64,000 nt of DNA from Methanogenium organophilum (GTDB taxonomy: Archaea > Halobacteriota > Methanomicrobia > Methanomicrobiales > Methanomicrobiaceae), in the NCBI RefSeq assembly GCF_026684035.1, contig NZ_CP113361.1, forward strand, positions 186,001-250,000, written 5' to 3'. Below, one piece after another: positions 30,113 through 35,554 of this stretch (position 1 is its first letter; the number at the start of each line of letters is the position of its first letter). The position numbers and the translations under genes are program-made. The notes under the pieces were generated by a model, which saw nothing but the letters and a program-made list of their open reading frames with translations, searched no databases and was not told where the DNA came from.

Positions 30113-30592
30113 CTAGAAATGCAGCGCAACAAATTCCCGCAGTGCTTCTGAAGTATTGGTACCGGTAACAGCCGAAATCTCCGGTGAATAAACAGATTCC
30201 GCAATAGCACCGTATCGTCCCGGACATGATTCAGGATGGTCACATTTGTTCAGAAAAACCGCATATGGACAGCCCGATGAACTGAGCATCCGGCAGATCT
30301 GTCGGGTTAGATCATCCAGCTCACGAGTGGTGTCAGCGACGACTATCGCCCCGTCCATTCCGCGGGAAAGAATGTCCCGGACAAATTCAAACCGATCCTG
30401 GCCCGGTGTCCCGAAAAGGTAGATCTTCTGGTTATCTATAACCGTCCGGCCGAAATCAAGACCAACGGTTGTCGAAATCTCACAGTTATTTGCTTCAATA
30501 TGATGGGATTCCGGATCAATTGCCCGGATAAATGTTGATTTCCCGGCATTATAGGCACCAAAAATCACAATCTTGAGTCTGGAGCGGTCCAT
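30113..30592 (-). CDS. Small Ras-like GTPase (COG2229 type)
   Basis: 159 aa. P-loop GAYNAGKST at residues 12-20, G3 region LFGTPGQDRFEF (the GTPGQ variant is usual in this family) and G4 FLNKCD. Proteins of this group are often linked to roadblock/LC7 or polarity systems. It is divergent from the ParA-chemoreceptor-CheR operon across a 137-nt promoter region, which suggests but does not show a link. Confidence 0.88.
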   Translation of the reverse strand: MDRSRLKIVIFGAYNAGKSTFIRAIDPESHHIEANNCEISTTVGLDFGRTVIDNQKIYLFGTPGQDRFEFVRDILSRGMDGAIVVADTTRELDDLTRQICRMLSSSGCPYAVFLNKCDHPESCPGRYGAIAESVYSPEISAVTGTNTSEALREFVALHF

Positions 30593-30729
30593 CGGTAGTA
30601 TTTGTTGGTTTGCGCCTCATATAACATTTTCAGTCAGAAATACACAGATTTCAGCCGTGAAACAAACAAAGTGTTTTTCACCTGACACTGCGAAATTCCA
30701 GTTAACTAATTCCAGACGGAAGATACCTA
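30593..30729. promoter_or_regulatory. Divergent promoter region, GTPase versus ParA operon
   Basis: 137 AT-rich bases separating divergent starts. It must contain both promoters; CATATAACA near 30619-30627 could be a TATA element for the GTPase gene. No clear palindrome. Confidence 0.35.
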
Positions 30730-31578
30730 ATGCCGGTAATAACATTTACACACCATAAAGGAGGTACCGGAAAAACTACATCCTGCCTAAATTGTGGCGG
30801 TTTTCTTAATACAAAAAGAAAACGCGTCCTAATAATTGACTGCGACCCACAGGCAAATGCAACCACCGGACTTGGATGTGATCCACAGGATGCCGAGAAA
30901 AATATGTATGATATCTTTATGTCAGGCACGGAGGGATTTGAGTCTGTTCAGCTCAAAGATATCATCGTCTCAACAGATTCAGGCATTGATCTCTGTCCCT
31001 CGTCACTCGATCTTGCCGGGTCCGAACCCTATCTCTACGAGCGCGAAGACAGACTTTTTGTTTTGAAAGAGGCAATTAAACCGATTCTCAGACGATATAG
31101 CTATATTCTGGTGGACACTCCGCCCAGCATGGGCCAGTTTGTCATCAACGGGATTGTCGCAGCGGATCATGTGATTGTCACACTGGACAACGGGATGTTT
31201 GCACGTACGGGAGTTGACGCCCTGCAGACCATATTTTCGGATATCGCAGAAATAACAGGAACGCCGGTATCAGCTGATATCGCCGTTATCACCCGCGGGC
31301 GGATGCTGCAGGAAGAGATGACACCGGGAGAAGAAATATCAGACGGATTCCGGCGTCTTTTGGGCATGAAAAAAGAGGAACACCGATCACGTGAGCAATT
31401 TGAAGAGATTGTCGCATTCTGTGAAAAATCCTTCCCGCATGTTTTTACTGTCCCTTATGACATCCATGTTCATGAGGCCCAGAAACAGGGATTGCCCCTC
31501 TCACAGTACGCTCCCGATAGCGAGGCAGCCCATGTGTATGAAAAAATATCCGCTGTGATAAAAAATTGGAACAAGTGA
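30730..31578 (+). CDS. ParA/Soj-type ATPase linked to chemoreceptor
   Basis: 282 aa. Deviant Walker A HKGGTGKTT with the signature Lys10, IDCDPQANAT, and Walker B ILVDTPPSMG define a ParA/MinD-family ATPase. ParA proteins bind DNA or other surfaces and move or space cargo. Next gene, 20 nt downstream, is a soluble chemoreceptor, followed by CheR; no ParB or replication origin is nearby. This context resembles PpfA-type positioning of cytoplasmic chemoreceptor arrays in bacteria. Confidence 0.92.
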   Translation: MPVITFTHHKGGTGKTTSCLNCGGFLNTKRKRVLIIDCDPQANATTGLGCDPQDAEKNMYDIFMSGTEGFESVQLKDIIVSTDSGIDLCPSSLDLAGSEPYLYEREDRLFVLKEAIKPILRRYSYILVDTPPSMGQFVINGIVAADHVIVTLDNGMFARTGVDALQTIFSDIAEITGTPVSADIAVITRGRMLQEEMTPGEEISDGFRRLLGMKKEEHRSREQFEEIVAFCEKSFPHVFTVPYDIHVHEAQKQGLPLSQYAPDSEAAHVYEKISAVIKNWNK

Positions 31579-31598
31579 AACCGAGGAACTGAATTCAT

Positions 31599-34500
31599 AT
31601 GGCAGATGAACGGAAGAGACCGGGACGAAAGGCACTCTTCACCGGAGTGCAGAAAGCAGAAACCAGGCACGAAGACAAAACAGAAAAACTCACAGCTGAG
31701 GATATCAGAGAATCGCTCTCAGTTGCACTTGAAAGTATCATCGTAAATCCAAAATCAGGAAGTATCTCTCCGGAAACACTTGACAATTCACTGGAGGGAG
31801 TTGTCTCCTCAATCAATTCTGCACTCGATGCGGTGCGAAAGGCTGCAGATACAGAACTGCTGGCAGCAGAGACAAAATCCAGAGACCTTTCAGAAATATC
31901 GGCAGAACAGGAACAAAAAATTGCGGCCCTGATGGCAGACCTTGAAAGTCAGCAGAGAATTACCCGCTCTCTGACCGAAGAGCTCAAAGAAATAACGCTC
32001 ACAGAGACAAACCAGTGGGAAGCAGAGAAAGAACGTCTTTTGGCAGAAAACAAAACAAAAGACGATGAAATCCGCCGTCAAGGCGAACTCATTTCCAAAC
32101 TTGGGGAAGAGACAGCAACACTCAGGAAGGAGGCAGCAGAAGCAGCCGTCCCGGATGCCGATGAAGACCTCCTGATGCGGTTTAAAGATCTCGAAACCGC
32201 CTATACGAACCTCAGCAGGCAGTATGAGGAAGAGATTGAGCAGAATGCTCTCGACCTGAAGGTAAAAGAAGATGAGATCATCGGGCAGAGACAGAGGATA
32301 TCTGCAGTCACTGAGGAGGCCGAAGCACTGAATAGGGCATTAGCAGAGGCACGCAGGACACAAAATGATGCTGCACGGGAAAAGCAGCTCGAAGAGCTCA
32401 CAGCACAGTATGCAGACCTGAAATCAGAGTATGTGGCTGTAACAGAACGTCTTGAAGCAGACACCAGAGCAAAAGAGGACGAAATCATCCATCTCAGGGA
32501 TGAGAACAAAGCGCATGCTGAAGAGATACGGGTTCTCAGGGAACGGGCATCAGAGGTGCCTGAGGCGCTGGTGGCAGAGAACGATGCAGACCTTCCCCAG
32601 CGGTTTGAAGAGCTTACCAAACAGCATGCAGACATAACGGCACAATACAACACACACAAAGAGCTAACAGAGGCTGAAAGAGTACGCCTGAAAGAGAAAC
32701 TGGTTGCAGCACAACATGCCAGAGATACGGCAAAATCTGATGCTTCCCGTCTTAATATGAAGATATATACCCTTGATGCCGGGAAAAAGGAACTCGAGAA
32801 AAAAATGGTGGCACAGGCACAGGCTGCAGCCTCGCAATATGATGAAACCGTTCGCGCCCTCAGGCAGAAAGAACAGGAGATGCAGGCACTCATTATGAAT
32901 AATCCAATCCCTGTCCTTATTACTGACAGTTCCTTTGCTATAACCGGTGCCAACCCCGCGTACGAAGAACTCTCCGGGATTCGACTCCCGAAACTGCGGA
33001 AAATGAATCTCCGTGACTTCACCCTCATTGATCAGAAAGGAGAAGGAATTGGGAAAACAGTACAGGAAAATATTCGCAGTTCGTCAGAAATTGAGATTCG
33101 CCTTCCTGCTGGCGTATACACTCTGGAGCAACATGGCATCCCGGTCATGGGAGAAAACGGATCGGTTTCATCCGTATATATTTATTATAATGATATTACC
33201 CAGAAGCGCAGGGAAGCAGAAGAGATTCGGGAACGGATGGCGGAAAATGAAGAACTGCGAAAACGTTCCGAACTCATGATCGAAGAAAATCCAATGCCCA
33301 TCCTCTATATGGACAGTAATTTCACCATTCAGGTTACGAATGAAGCATATGTCACGATGAGCGGCATTCCACGCAAAAAGCTCATCGGAATGAATGCACG
33401 CGATTTCACCATTCAAAATCAGGAAGGGGATGGACTTGGACAGATCATCCGACAAAAGAAAACATGCTACGGCGTTGTGGATGTTGCCCTCCCTACAGGC
33501 ACCCAGACTCTGGAACAGTATGGCATCCCGGTATTCGGGCCTGCGGGTGAGTTATCAAATATTTTTGTCGTATACAACAACATCTCTGATGTCAGGAAAA
33601 AAGAAGCAGAGATCGCCCAGATCATGGCGCAGGTGCGCGAAGAGGCAGAAACCCTTGAAGAAAGCGCAGGCCAGCTAACCGCACGGATGGAGGAGCTGGC
33701 ATCCGGAAACCTGATGGCAGAAACACCAATCTCTGACAGCGATCCCCTCAAAATCCTCAAAGAGCACTACAATACCTCCGTTCGTGCCATACGCTCAATC
33801 ACGGAGAATGTTGCAGAAACGATTGAAACCATACGCCATACCGCAAAAGAGCTCACGGAAAGCAGTGATGAAATCAGTAATGCCAATGTGAAGATGGCGA
33901 CAGACACACAGACCATTACCGATGATATGAGCGTCCTGCAAAGAGAGATAGAGGCGGTAAGCTATGAAGTAGCAAATCTCTCGGCATCAATCCAGGAGAT
34001 CGCAAGCACTTCCCAGGAAGTGATGCGGCAGGCAGAACTCTCCTCAGAAGAAGGGGCAAAAGGGGCAGAGATCGGCAAAGATGCTTCAGAAAAGATGGCA
34101 CTCGTGGGGGAGATCTCGCAGGAGAGTGTGCAGCACATCACTGAACTCAACGACCAGATGCAGAAGATTGGAAAGATTGTCCGCATTATTGCGGGTATCG
34201 CCGATCAGACCAATCTTCTCGCCATCAATGCAGCAATTGAAGCAGCCCGTGCCGGGGAGCACGGTAGAGGGTTCTCGGTCGTTGCAGGAGAGATACGCAA
34301 TTTGGCGGTAGAGTCAAAGGAAGCCTCGGCAAGCATCGAAGAACTGATTCTTTCGATACAAAATGAGAGTGAACAAACCGCTGAGTCGATGCGAACAGCA
34401 GATGTTGAGATTCAAAACGGTATCACCAGTGTGAATGCATCCATTGATGCCATTAACACTATTGTTGAGGTAATTAATCTCTCAGCACAGGGAGTTGTAG

Positions 34501-34724
34501 AAATTACCCATGCCACTGAAGATCAGGCCAATGCCACCAACCGCCTGATGGAAAAGGTCGAGCTTGCGTCCCAGATGGCCAGGAAAACCATGCATAACAA
34601 TGAGGATATGGCAGCGCTGGCAGAGGAACTGAGTGCATCCGCTGAAGAGGTGGGCAGTGTCGTCCATGAACTTGACACAATGGCAAAACAGCTGCATTCT
34701 CAGATCGAACGTTTCAGTATATAA
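31599..34724 (+). CDS. Soluble methyl-accepting chemotaxis protein with long coiled coil and two PAS domains
   Basis: 1041 aa without membrane helices. Basic N-terminus [12 protein letters not shown] (residues 5-16), long coiled coil about 60-425, PAS domains about 430-545 and 560-675 (each with NPIPVL or NPMPIL and EELSGI or VTMSGI style cores), a HAMP-like linker about 690-745 and an MCP signalling domain about 760-1041. The hairpin tip has [20 protein letters not shown]. No CheR-binding pentapeptide at the C-terminus. It is expected to control CheA from the cytoplasm. The N-terminal motif resembles ParB peptides that stimulate ParA. Confidence 0.93.
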
Positions 34725-34747
34725 TAAACGGAGCAGTTGATACAACA

Positions 34748-35554
34748 ATGAATACCAGAGGATTTCGGTCGGTTTTGCGCACAATTGAGTCGAAAATCGG
34801 CATCCAGTGTGCAAACTACAAAGAGGACTACCTGCAGCGAAGAATTCAGTCCAGAATGCGGATGAATAAAATGACTTCCTATAGTGAATATAATTCCTTT
34901 CTTACCACACAGGAAGAAGAACAGGAAGCACTGCGCAATGCCCTTACGATTAATGTAACAAAATTCTGGCGTGATCCAGAGGTGTTTAACATAATCAAAC
35001 GTGACGTTCTCCCGGATATCCGCCGCAGGAAACAAAAAATCAGGATATGGAGTGCAGGATGCGCCACTGGTGAAGAGCCATACACCATCGCACTGATGTG
35101 CCATGAAGCAAAGGTGTTGTACCCGGATGTGGAGGTGACCATCTTTGCCTCAGACATCGACAGGGAAGCCCTGAAAAAAGCAGAAAAAGGCATATATCAC
35201 CAAAAAGCATTGGAGAATCTCTCAGAATCACAGATTCGCAGACATTTTAATGAACAGCAGGATGGAACATTCCAGGTCAAACAGCATCTCAAAGATCTCG
35301 TGAAATTTTCCCGGCATGATCTGATGAGCGGGCGGGGAGTGACGCAGTATCTGGACATCATTCTCTGCAGGAATGTAACCATTTACTTCACTGAAAAACA
35401 AAAGGATGAACTCGCACGTATATTTGCACCGGCACTTTCCGAAGGCGGATATTATGTCATGGGCAAGACGGAGTATATGGGCAGGGATGTTGAACACCTG
35501 TATGAACCATATAATCCGATTCAGAAAATATACCGTAAGAAGAGCAATGGATAA
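34748..35554 (+). CDS. cheR: Chemotaxis protein methyltransferase CheR
   Basis: 268 aa. N-terminal helical domain and a SAM-dependent domain with IWSAGCATGEEPYTIA, the CheR signature, plus ILCRNVTIYF and YYVMGKTEYMG. It methylates glutamates of chemoreceptors. It starts 23 nt after the receptor gene, its likely substrate. cheA, cheW, cheB and cheY are not in this window. ATG 34748 fits family length. Confidence 0.95.
   Translation: MNTRGFRSVLRTIESKIGIQCANYKEDYLQRRIQSRMRMNKMTSYSEYNSFLTTQEEEQEALRNALTINVTKFWRDPEVFNIIKRDVLPDIRRRKQKIRIWSAGCATGEEPYTIALMCHEAKVLYPDVEVTIFASDIDREALKKAEKGIYHQKALENLSESQIRRHFNEQQDGTFQVKQHLKDLVKFSRHDLMSGRGVTQYLDIILCRNVTIYFTEKQKDELARIFAPALSEGGYYVMGKTEYMGRDVEHLYEPYNPIQKIYRKKSNG

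Follow-up and report, generated by a model that had tools for sequence, protein, structure and literature searches.

ParA-type ATPases encoded with soluble chemoreceptors in chemotaxis (che) operons are already known as a bacterial arrangement. A 2010 survey (Hamer et al.) reports ppfA in the che operons of 77 species, and its dataset includes a Methanoregula (PMC2829493). In Rhodobacter sphaeroides, the ParA homologue PpfA is encoded beside the soluble receptor TlpT in a che operon with no ParB; the arrays are soluble, the receptor N-terminus is the partner of PpfA, and inheritance of these cytoplasmic arrays depends on ParA (PMC3964821, PMC10924463). Short basic-hydrophobic N-terminal peptides activate ParA/MinD ATPases, for example those of ParB and PomX, and TlpT is thought to act in this way (PMC7993993, PMC10241942, PMC12462528). 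Two further systems are the ParC-ParP pair of Vibrio (PMC5706961) and MinD2 and MinD4 of Haloferax volcanii, ParA/MinD-family ATPases that affect the position of arrays and archaella (PMC11588486). Here we describe an operon of the archaeon Methanogenium organophilum, found in a stretch of 64,000 nucleotides (nt) (contig NZ_CP113361.1, positions 186,001 to 250,000; hereafter the window), in which genes for a ParA-type ATPase, a soluble methyl-accepting chemotaxis protein (MCP) and the methyltransferase CheR follow one another.

This operon quite probably encodes a ParA-type system dedicated to positioning cytoplasmic chemosensory arrays, with docking between ParA and the array very likely occurring via the N-terminus of a carrier protein that bears the short tag (R/K)PGRKALF. 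Direct support comes from the linkage of the genes, the conserved tag, its swapping between carriers, the joint absence of ParA and tag, the ParA fold and the solubility of the carrier. Because ParA directly precedes a soluble receptor or adaptor with a nearly invariant GRKALF tag, methanogens, Methanophagales (ANME-1) and one bacterial lineage probably use a ParA machine to position their sensory arrays and divide them between cells.

The locus is like PpfA-TlpT in that a ParA homologue is encoded next to a soluble receptor in a che operon with no ParB, and the receptor N-terminus would likewise be the partner of the ATPase. Compared with PpfA and TlpT as described in the literature, it differs in its archaeal host, in the near invariance of GRKALF, in the alternation of MCP and PAS-CheW carriers, and in an ATPase whose basic DNA-binding pair is replaced and which has an amphipathic insert. 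An earlier sequence-only reading of the window had drawn the same parallel. The part that stands is a ParA dedicated to soluble arrays with docking via the receptor N-terminus; close equivalence to PpfA on the nucleoid is unsupported, because the basic DNA-binding positions are replaced and the insert is MinD-like. ParP is an array protein that combines a CheW-like domain with an N-terminal part binding the ATPase, as the PAS-CheW carriers of relatives would (PMC5706961). However, its arrays are polar and its ParC-binding part is a domain on a proline-rich linker rather than a short tag on a soluble protein; a CheW-like (AIF) domain as in ParP is found on carriers of relatives only, the window carrier being an MCP. 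MinD2 and MinD4 are of the MinD type with no linked tagged receptor described, whereas the window protein is of the Soj/ParA type by fold. The tag also recalls the ParB motif LGRGLxxLI, which is likewise a short, disordered, basic-plus-hydrophobic N-terminal peptide docking on ParA (PMC12462528). This likeness, proposed by the sequence-only reading, holds in character but not in residues and spacing (R-x-A-L-F in the tag and R-G-L-x-x-L-I in ParB, a difference of two), and the L of the ParA pocket loop is Q in the archaeal family.

In the open literature searched, no description was found of an archaeal pair of ParA and soluble MCP, of the tag, of its swapping or of the changes in ParA. The earlier statement that such a system is not described in archaea fits this literature; it is qualified by the 2010 survey, whose 77 ppfA species are drawn from a set including a Methanoregula (PMC2829493).

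Linkage of ParA to tagged array proteins

The sample comprised 150 genomes of the order Methanomicrobiales. ParA orthologues (E-value cut-off: 1e-20) are present in 78 of these genomes, with 81 matches in all. CheR lies 2.3-7 kb downstream on the same strand for 63 of the 81 matches, and the ParA-chemoreceptor pairing is therefore not due to chance. Nearly all matches with no downstream CheR are near contig ends; the real exceptions are genome G025 and the second copy in the M. organophilum genome. The standard gene order in the 60 loci read is ParA-MCP-(CheW)-CheR, with CheR kept at the operon end, and four of the families in the order have this operon (f1, f3, f4 and f5). Public ParA relatives were found in Methanolinea, Methanoculleus, Methanospirillum and Methanoregula. 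Co-occurrence of ParA with soluble MCPs, which the sequence-only reading had proposed, is thus conserved in relatives together with the N-terminal motif. At locus L081 (G131, contig 2), ParA-tagged receptor units stand in tandem, and the tag is present three times in about 14 kb, once on an MCP of 1669 amino acids (aa).

The product encoded after ParA has (R/K)PGRKALF(T)G among its first 25 residues or so, at carrier lengths of about 500 to 1669 aa. A tagged operon product is encoded at 78 of 80 ParA loci (from Methanomicrobiales, ANME-1 and genome G342). A script found 74 of these, and four with ParA outside its pattern (L076, L078, L079 and L089) were added by separate reading of the loci; the remaining two loci (L040 and L082) are truncated at contig ends. 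At six loci (L065, L068, L072, L077, L085 and L093) the first MCP is untagged and a second array protein of the same operon is tagged. Among 47 diverse carriers, the G, R and L of the tag do not vary and K, A and F hardly vary, with an information content of 3.4-4.3 bits per position that falls to about 1, the background level, from position +9.

A codon search for GRKALF, using a pattern that also admits GRKAFF and GSKALF, gave 113 occurrences in the 150 genomes. Sixty of these are 29-84 nt past the ParA match and 67 are within 6 kb of it; the 46 unlinked to ParA amount to about 0.3 per genome, which is the background in genomes with and without ParA alike. A chance motif was ruled out, as the codons are enriched only beside ParA. 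The tag is also not a general N-terminus of archaeal MCPs, since it is missing from the third MCP of the M. organophilum genome and from operons that have no ParA.

The module extends beyond one order and beyond archaea. The best ParA matches outside the order are in Methanophagales, where the next proteins begin (I)RKPGRKALFEDV and the product after ParA, where long enough, is an MCP followed by CheW. (Family f10 is taken as Methanophagales from the clustering of locus L112 with it.) Genome G342 encodes RRAGRKVLF on an MCP directly after ParA. In the phylum Omnitrophota the ParA-tagged receptor pair is found in two genomes (L238 of G505, and L115), one with the tag itself and one with the variant RQAAKKALF, which suggests either inter-domain transfer or an old shared module.

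Carrier swapping, joint absence and the proposed model

The tag is carried by an MCP in most genomes and by a PAS-CheW protein in others, which belong to several genera. At loci L065, L070, L073, L080, L088 and L094, a protein with a C-terminal CheW domain (Pfam CheW E-values: 4e-26 to 1e-29), in most cases also with PAS domains, bears the tag in place of an MCP. CheW query matches also stand at the place of the tagged carrier at L105, L110 and L113. On the ParA tree, at least three changes between MCP and PAS-CheW carriers can be counted. Membership of the array core is all that MCP and CheW share; the partner of the tag should therefore be common to all of them, and its cargo should be the array. 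The swapping has an engineered counterpart in Vibrio, where the ParC-binding domain of ParP still localises arrays when transferred onto the CheA P5 domain (PMC5706961).

Equivalent operons that have no ParA also have no tag in the five cases that could be read. These are MCP-CheW-CheR operons in G005, G029, G136 and G099 and a PAS-CheW-CheR operon in G047; in G103, which is congeneric with G099, tag codons adjoin a ParA gene. Two congeners of ParA-bearing genomes, G059 and G097, keep CheW-CheR but lack the tagged MCP, and transmembrane MCPs are nearby. The joint absence of ParA and tag comes from few lineages, and it supports rather than proves the dependence of one on the other.

The model that we propose runs as follows. 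The short, disordered N-terminal tag on array proteins would dock on the ATP-bound ParA dimer, and the docked tag would stimulate the ParA ATPase. ParA-ATP would hold the array on a cellular matrix, and release by ATP hydrolysis would spread and place the arrays and ensure their inheritance by daughter cells. Any core component of the array may bear the tag, as do the receptor in the window and the CheW adaptor in relatives, and CheR, joined in many relatives by CheW, would be co-encoded to build and adapt the array.

Several points weigh against this model. Binding of the tag to ParA, stimulation of the ATPase and positioning of the array are drawn by analogy from the named precedents, and the mismatch in spacing between tag and ParB motif, along with the different ParA pocket, would make the docking mode of ParB an analogue at most. 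The tag could instead have CheA or some other protein as its partner and only vary in step with ParA. Synteny inside one order is also partly shared ancestry.

The archaeal array-placement factors in the papers searched are haloarchaeal MinD homologues. This system offers a probable docking tag defined to the residue, natural knock-outs in which ParA and tag are missing together, and natural domain swaps from receptor to CheW; array segregation by an archaeal ParA, and the matrix involved, are therefore directly testable. A six-residue recruiter that functions on unrelated carriers would, if confirmed, be a handy general tag.

The ATPase, its candidate matrix and its start codon

The window ATPase is of the Soj/ParA type rather than MinD, as judged from the ranking of its predicted fold. 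The AlphaFold2 model (predicted local distance difference test score, pLDDT: 92) is nearest to the solved structures of Soj (VIA Z: 35.5), M. xanthus ParA (34.9) and McdA (30), with MinD at 28 or below. The C-terminal region aligns with ParA and has no C-terminal MinD-type tail. In a family alignment of 26 rows, the Walker A motif HHKGGTGKTT is invariant, with the signature lysine as in KGGxGKT. In the ParA tree, the archaeal che-linked family forms a supported clade (97/88), the chromosomal ParAs group in a second one (100/100) and bacterial che-linked ParAs take a place between the two. Bacterial ParA has the pocket loop PPSxGL, which is PPSMGQ in the archaeal family (Q136 in 62 of 63 sequences, L in most bacterial rows), a change in keeping with a ligand other than the ParB motif.

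Two basic positions are replaced in the archaeal family. Position 243 is R in 17 of 17 bacterial chromosomal ParAs and basic in 0 of 63 archaeal sequences; position 246 is R or K in the same 17 and basic in 8% of the archaeal family. We take these positions to be those of the lysines that contact DNA in H. pylori Soj. Counted from the C-terminal ends of the alignment, position 246 would correspond to R238 of M. xanthus ParA; the exchange R238E abolishes DNA binding in that protein (PMC12462528). Two cyanobacterial loci (L118 and L114) have che-linked ParAs in which the conserved R at the equivalent of position 243 is also missing, and the product after ParA at L118 starts MTIPKKRNSGLQVFFEDTE, a possible divergent tag.

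The archaeal ParAs have an insert (median: 27 residues) at a place where bacterial chromosomal ParA rows are gapped. Almost all rows have an amphipathic segment in it, for example KGFFSSFFHRLF, PKGFLSWMKRRF and GLALFLKRIF, and the AlphaFold2 model of the window ATPase has a helix there. The median 12-residue hydrophobic moment of the insert is 0.57, as opposed to 0.48 by the same measure for what we take to be the E. coli MinD tail. This helix is a candidate matrix- or membrane-binding element.

For the matrix, membrane and nucleoid are rated about equal, the membrane being considered because of the amphipathic insert and the lost arginines, and the nucleoid because of the fold and the PpfA precedent. 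It is conceivable, if somewhat short of probable, that the ParA-fold dimer attaches to the cytoplasmic side of the membrane via its internal amphipathic helix in the manner of MinD, pulling arrays along this surface or towards poles close to the archaella. The insert patterns are close to the E. coli MinD tail and high in hydrophobic moment, and the loss of the basic positions is accompanied by a median whole-protein charge of -11 (bacterial ParA: -3). The effect of Haloferax MinD2 and MinD4 on array position is also in favor of this (PMC11588486). However, the MinD helix is C-terminal and the insert helix internal, and the insert has only about 12 residues in ANME-1 and about 10 in bacterial relatives. 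In addition, the window insert has a net charge of 0 and could serve protein-protein or DNA binding, and the fold is nearer ParA than MinD.

A nucleoid matrix has the same standing in our judgement: as a true functional equivalent of PpfA-TlpT, ParA-ATP would coat the nucleoid and space the arrays along it. This agrees with a fold nearest Soj/ParA and with the precedent of PpfA, which acts with soluble TlpT and no ParB (PMC3964821, PMC10924463, PMC9178275). Both basic positions of the 17 bacterial chromosomal ParAs are replaced, which speaks against it, but PpfA is outside that comparison and other DNA contacts are possible.

At the position of the window ATG, 75 parA genes have ATT (36), ATC (11), ATA (8) or ATG (9), and most of the rest are from ANME-1, where parA has an ATG two codons upstream of the aligned start. 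No in-frame ATG, GTG or TTG occurs anywhere before Walker A in 30 of the 75. A GGTG-type element mostly precedes the Ile codon by 4-8 nt. Genes of the Methanoculleus type do have a GTG in frame three codons before the Ile codon, but this GTG overlaps the element. The window parA starts with ATG at 30730, and the non-standard starts are found at L041-L053, L068-L094 and others. This pattern suggests that parA of most Methanomicrobiales relatives initiates at near-cognate codons, perhaps keeping ParA low. Conserved Ile-codon starts would, if real, be an unusual case of translation in archaea.

Low ParA levels would also suit a role in controlling array assembly, stoichiometry or signalling, or as a ParC-like polar anchor, instead of spacing or segregation. 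The pairing with CheW-type carriers recalls ParP-ParC, whose carrier has a further role in promoting array formation (PMC5706961), but ParA/MinD partners described with N-terminal peptides of this kind act mainly in positioning (PMC10241942), and we consider this role unlikely. An ordinary chromosome or plasmid partition ParA that merely adjoins chemotaxis genes would share the ParA fold, but is so improbable that it was rejected, given that ParB_N has no match in the complete M. organophilum genome (a control search was positive in 10 of 14 named genomes), that linkage to array genes is kept across families, classes and into bacteria, and that the tree separates the archaeal che-linked ParAs from the chromosomal ones.

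The positioning system proposed here can be combined with the membrane matrix in a single, more tentative proposal: a cross-domain tag system in which a ParA with no DNA-binding arginines and with an internal MinD-like helix would move arrays on the membrane, the six-residue tag would hop between array proteins and so recruit the whole array, and parA would start at AUU, AUC or AUA in most Methanomicrobiales.

Features of the window locus and genomic context

The coordinates, strands, lengths and spacing that the sequence-only reading gave for the four genes were borne out (Table 1), and Pfam and NCBIfam matches agree with the identities of their products. The gap between ParA and chemoreceptor is 20 nt and that between chemoreceptor and CheR is 23 nt. 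The chemoreceptor consists of the N-terminal tag, a long coiled-coil-like region, PAS domains at residues 427-525 and 565-666 and an MCP signalling domain at residues 824-990 (Pfam). It has no membrane segment, as had been stated earlier, the highest 19-residue hydropathy average being 1.2.

Table 1. Positions of genes and smaller features of the operon in the window
Feature	Position	Strand	Support
Small Ras-like GTPase, divergent, 159 aa	30113..30592	-	Pfam small GTPase
ParA-type ATPase, 282 aa, ATG start	30730..31578	+	Pfam AAA_31/ParA, 8.3e-44
Deviant Walker A HHKGGTGKTT of ParA (signature K10, catalytic K15)	30751..30780	+	
Family-specific ParA insert, about residues 190-213 (amphipathic helix 202-210)	31297..31368	+	Bacterial chromosomal ParA rows gapped there
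ParA codons Y243 to H246	31456..31467	+	Two invariant basic residues in bacterial chromosomal ParA
Soluble methyl-accepting chemoreceptor, 1041 aa	31599..34724	+	Pfam MCPsignal, 7e-39, and PAS domains
GRKALF, core of candidate ParA-docking tag, chemoreceptor residues 9-14	31623..31640	+	
CheR methyltransferase, 268 aa	34748..35554	+	Pfam CheR, 6.3e-55; CheR_N, 1.3e-12

The Ras-like GTPase matches only the generic small-GTPase, Ras and Rab families; in a comparison with MglA-type polarity GTPases, its matches were all of this general kind. Its gene is the divergent neighbor of the operon in 8 of 60 relatives, which belong to the genus of the window and a few others of its family. A general part in the module was thus ruled out, and the polarity cue once suggested for this protein falls outside the conserved module.

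The window is part of a complete genome of 2.65 Mb (G000). This genome encodes three MCPs. Two are tagged, that of the window and another at about 1.07 Mb; the third, at 1.27 Mb, is soluble and untagged and lies next to CheW. The only two ParA orthologues each precede a tagged MCP. At the second locus (L104:8149-13621; about 1.068-1.074 Mb), ParA is followed by the tagged MCP (METIGRKALF...; METIGRKALFEAYPS) and then by CheW; this MCP bears five HAMP_2 repeats. Three CheW-type domains were found in the genome, one of them inside the sole CheA found. The gene for this CheA (L103; 2.351-2.369 Mb) is clustered with genes for CheB, CheC, CheD, archaeal CheF and the archaellum ATPase. The cluster contains no MCP or CheW gene, and the array receptors are all encoded elsewhere in the genome.

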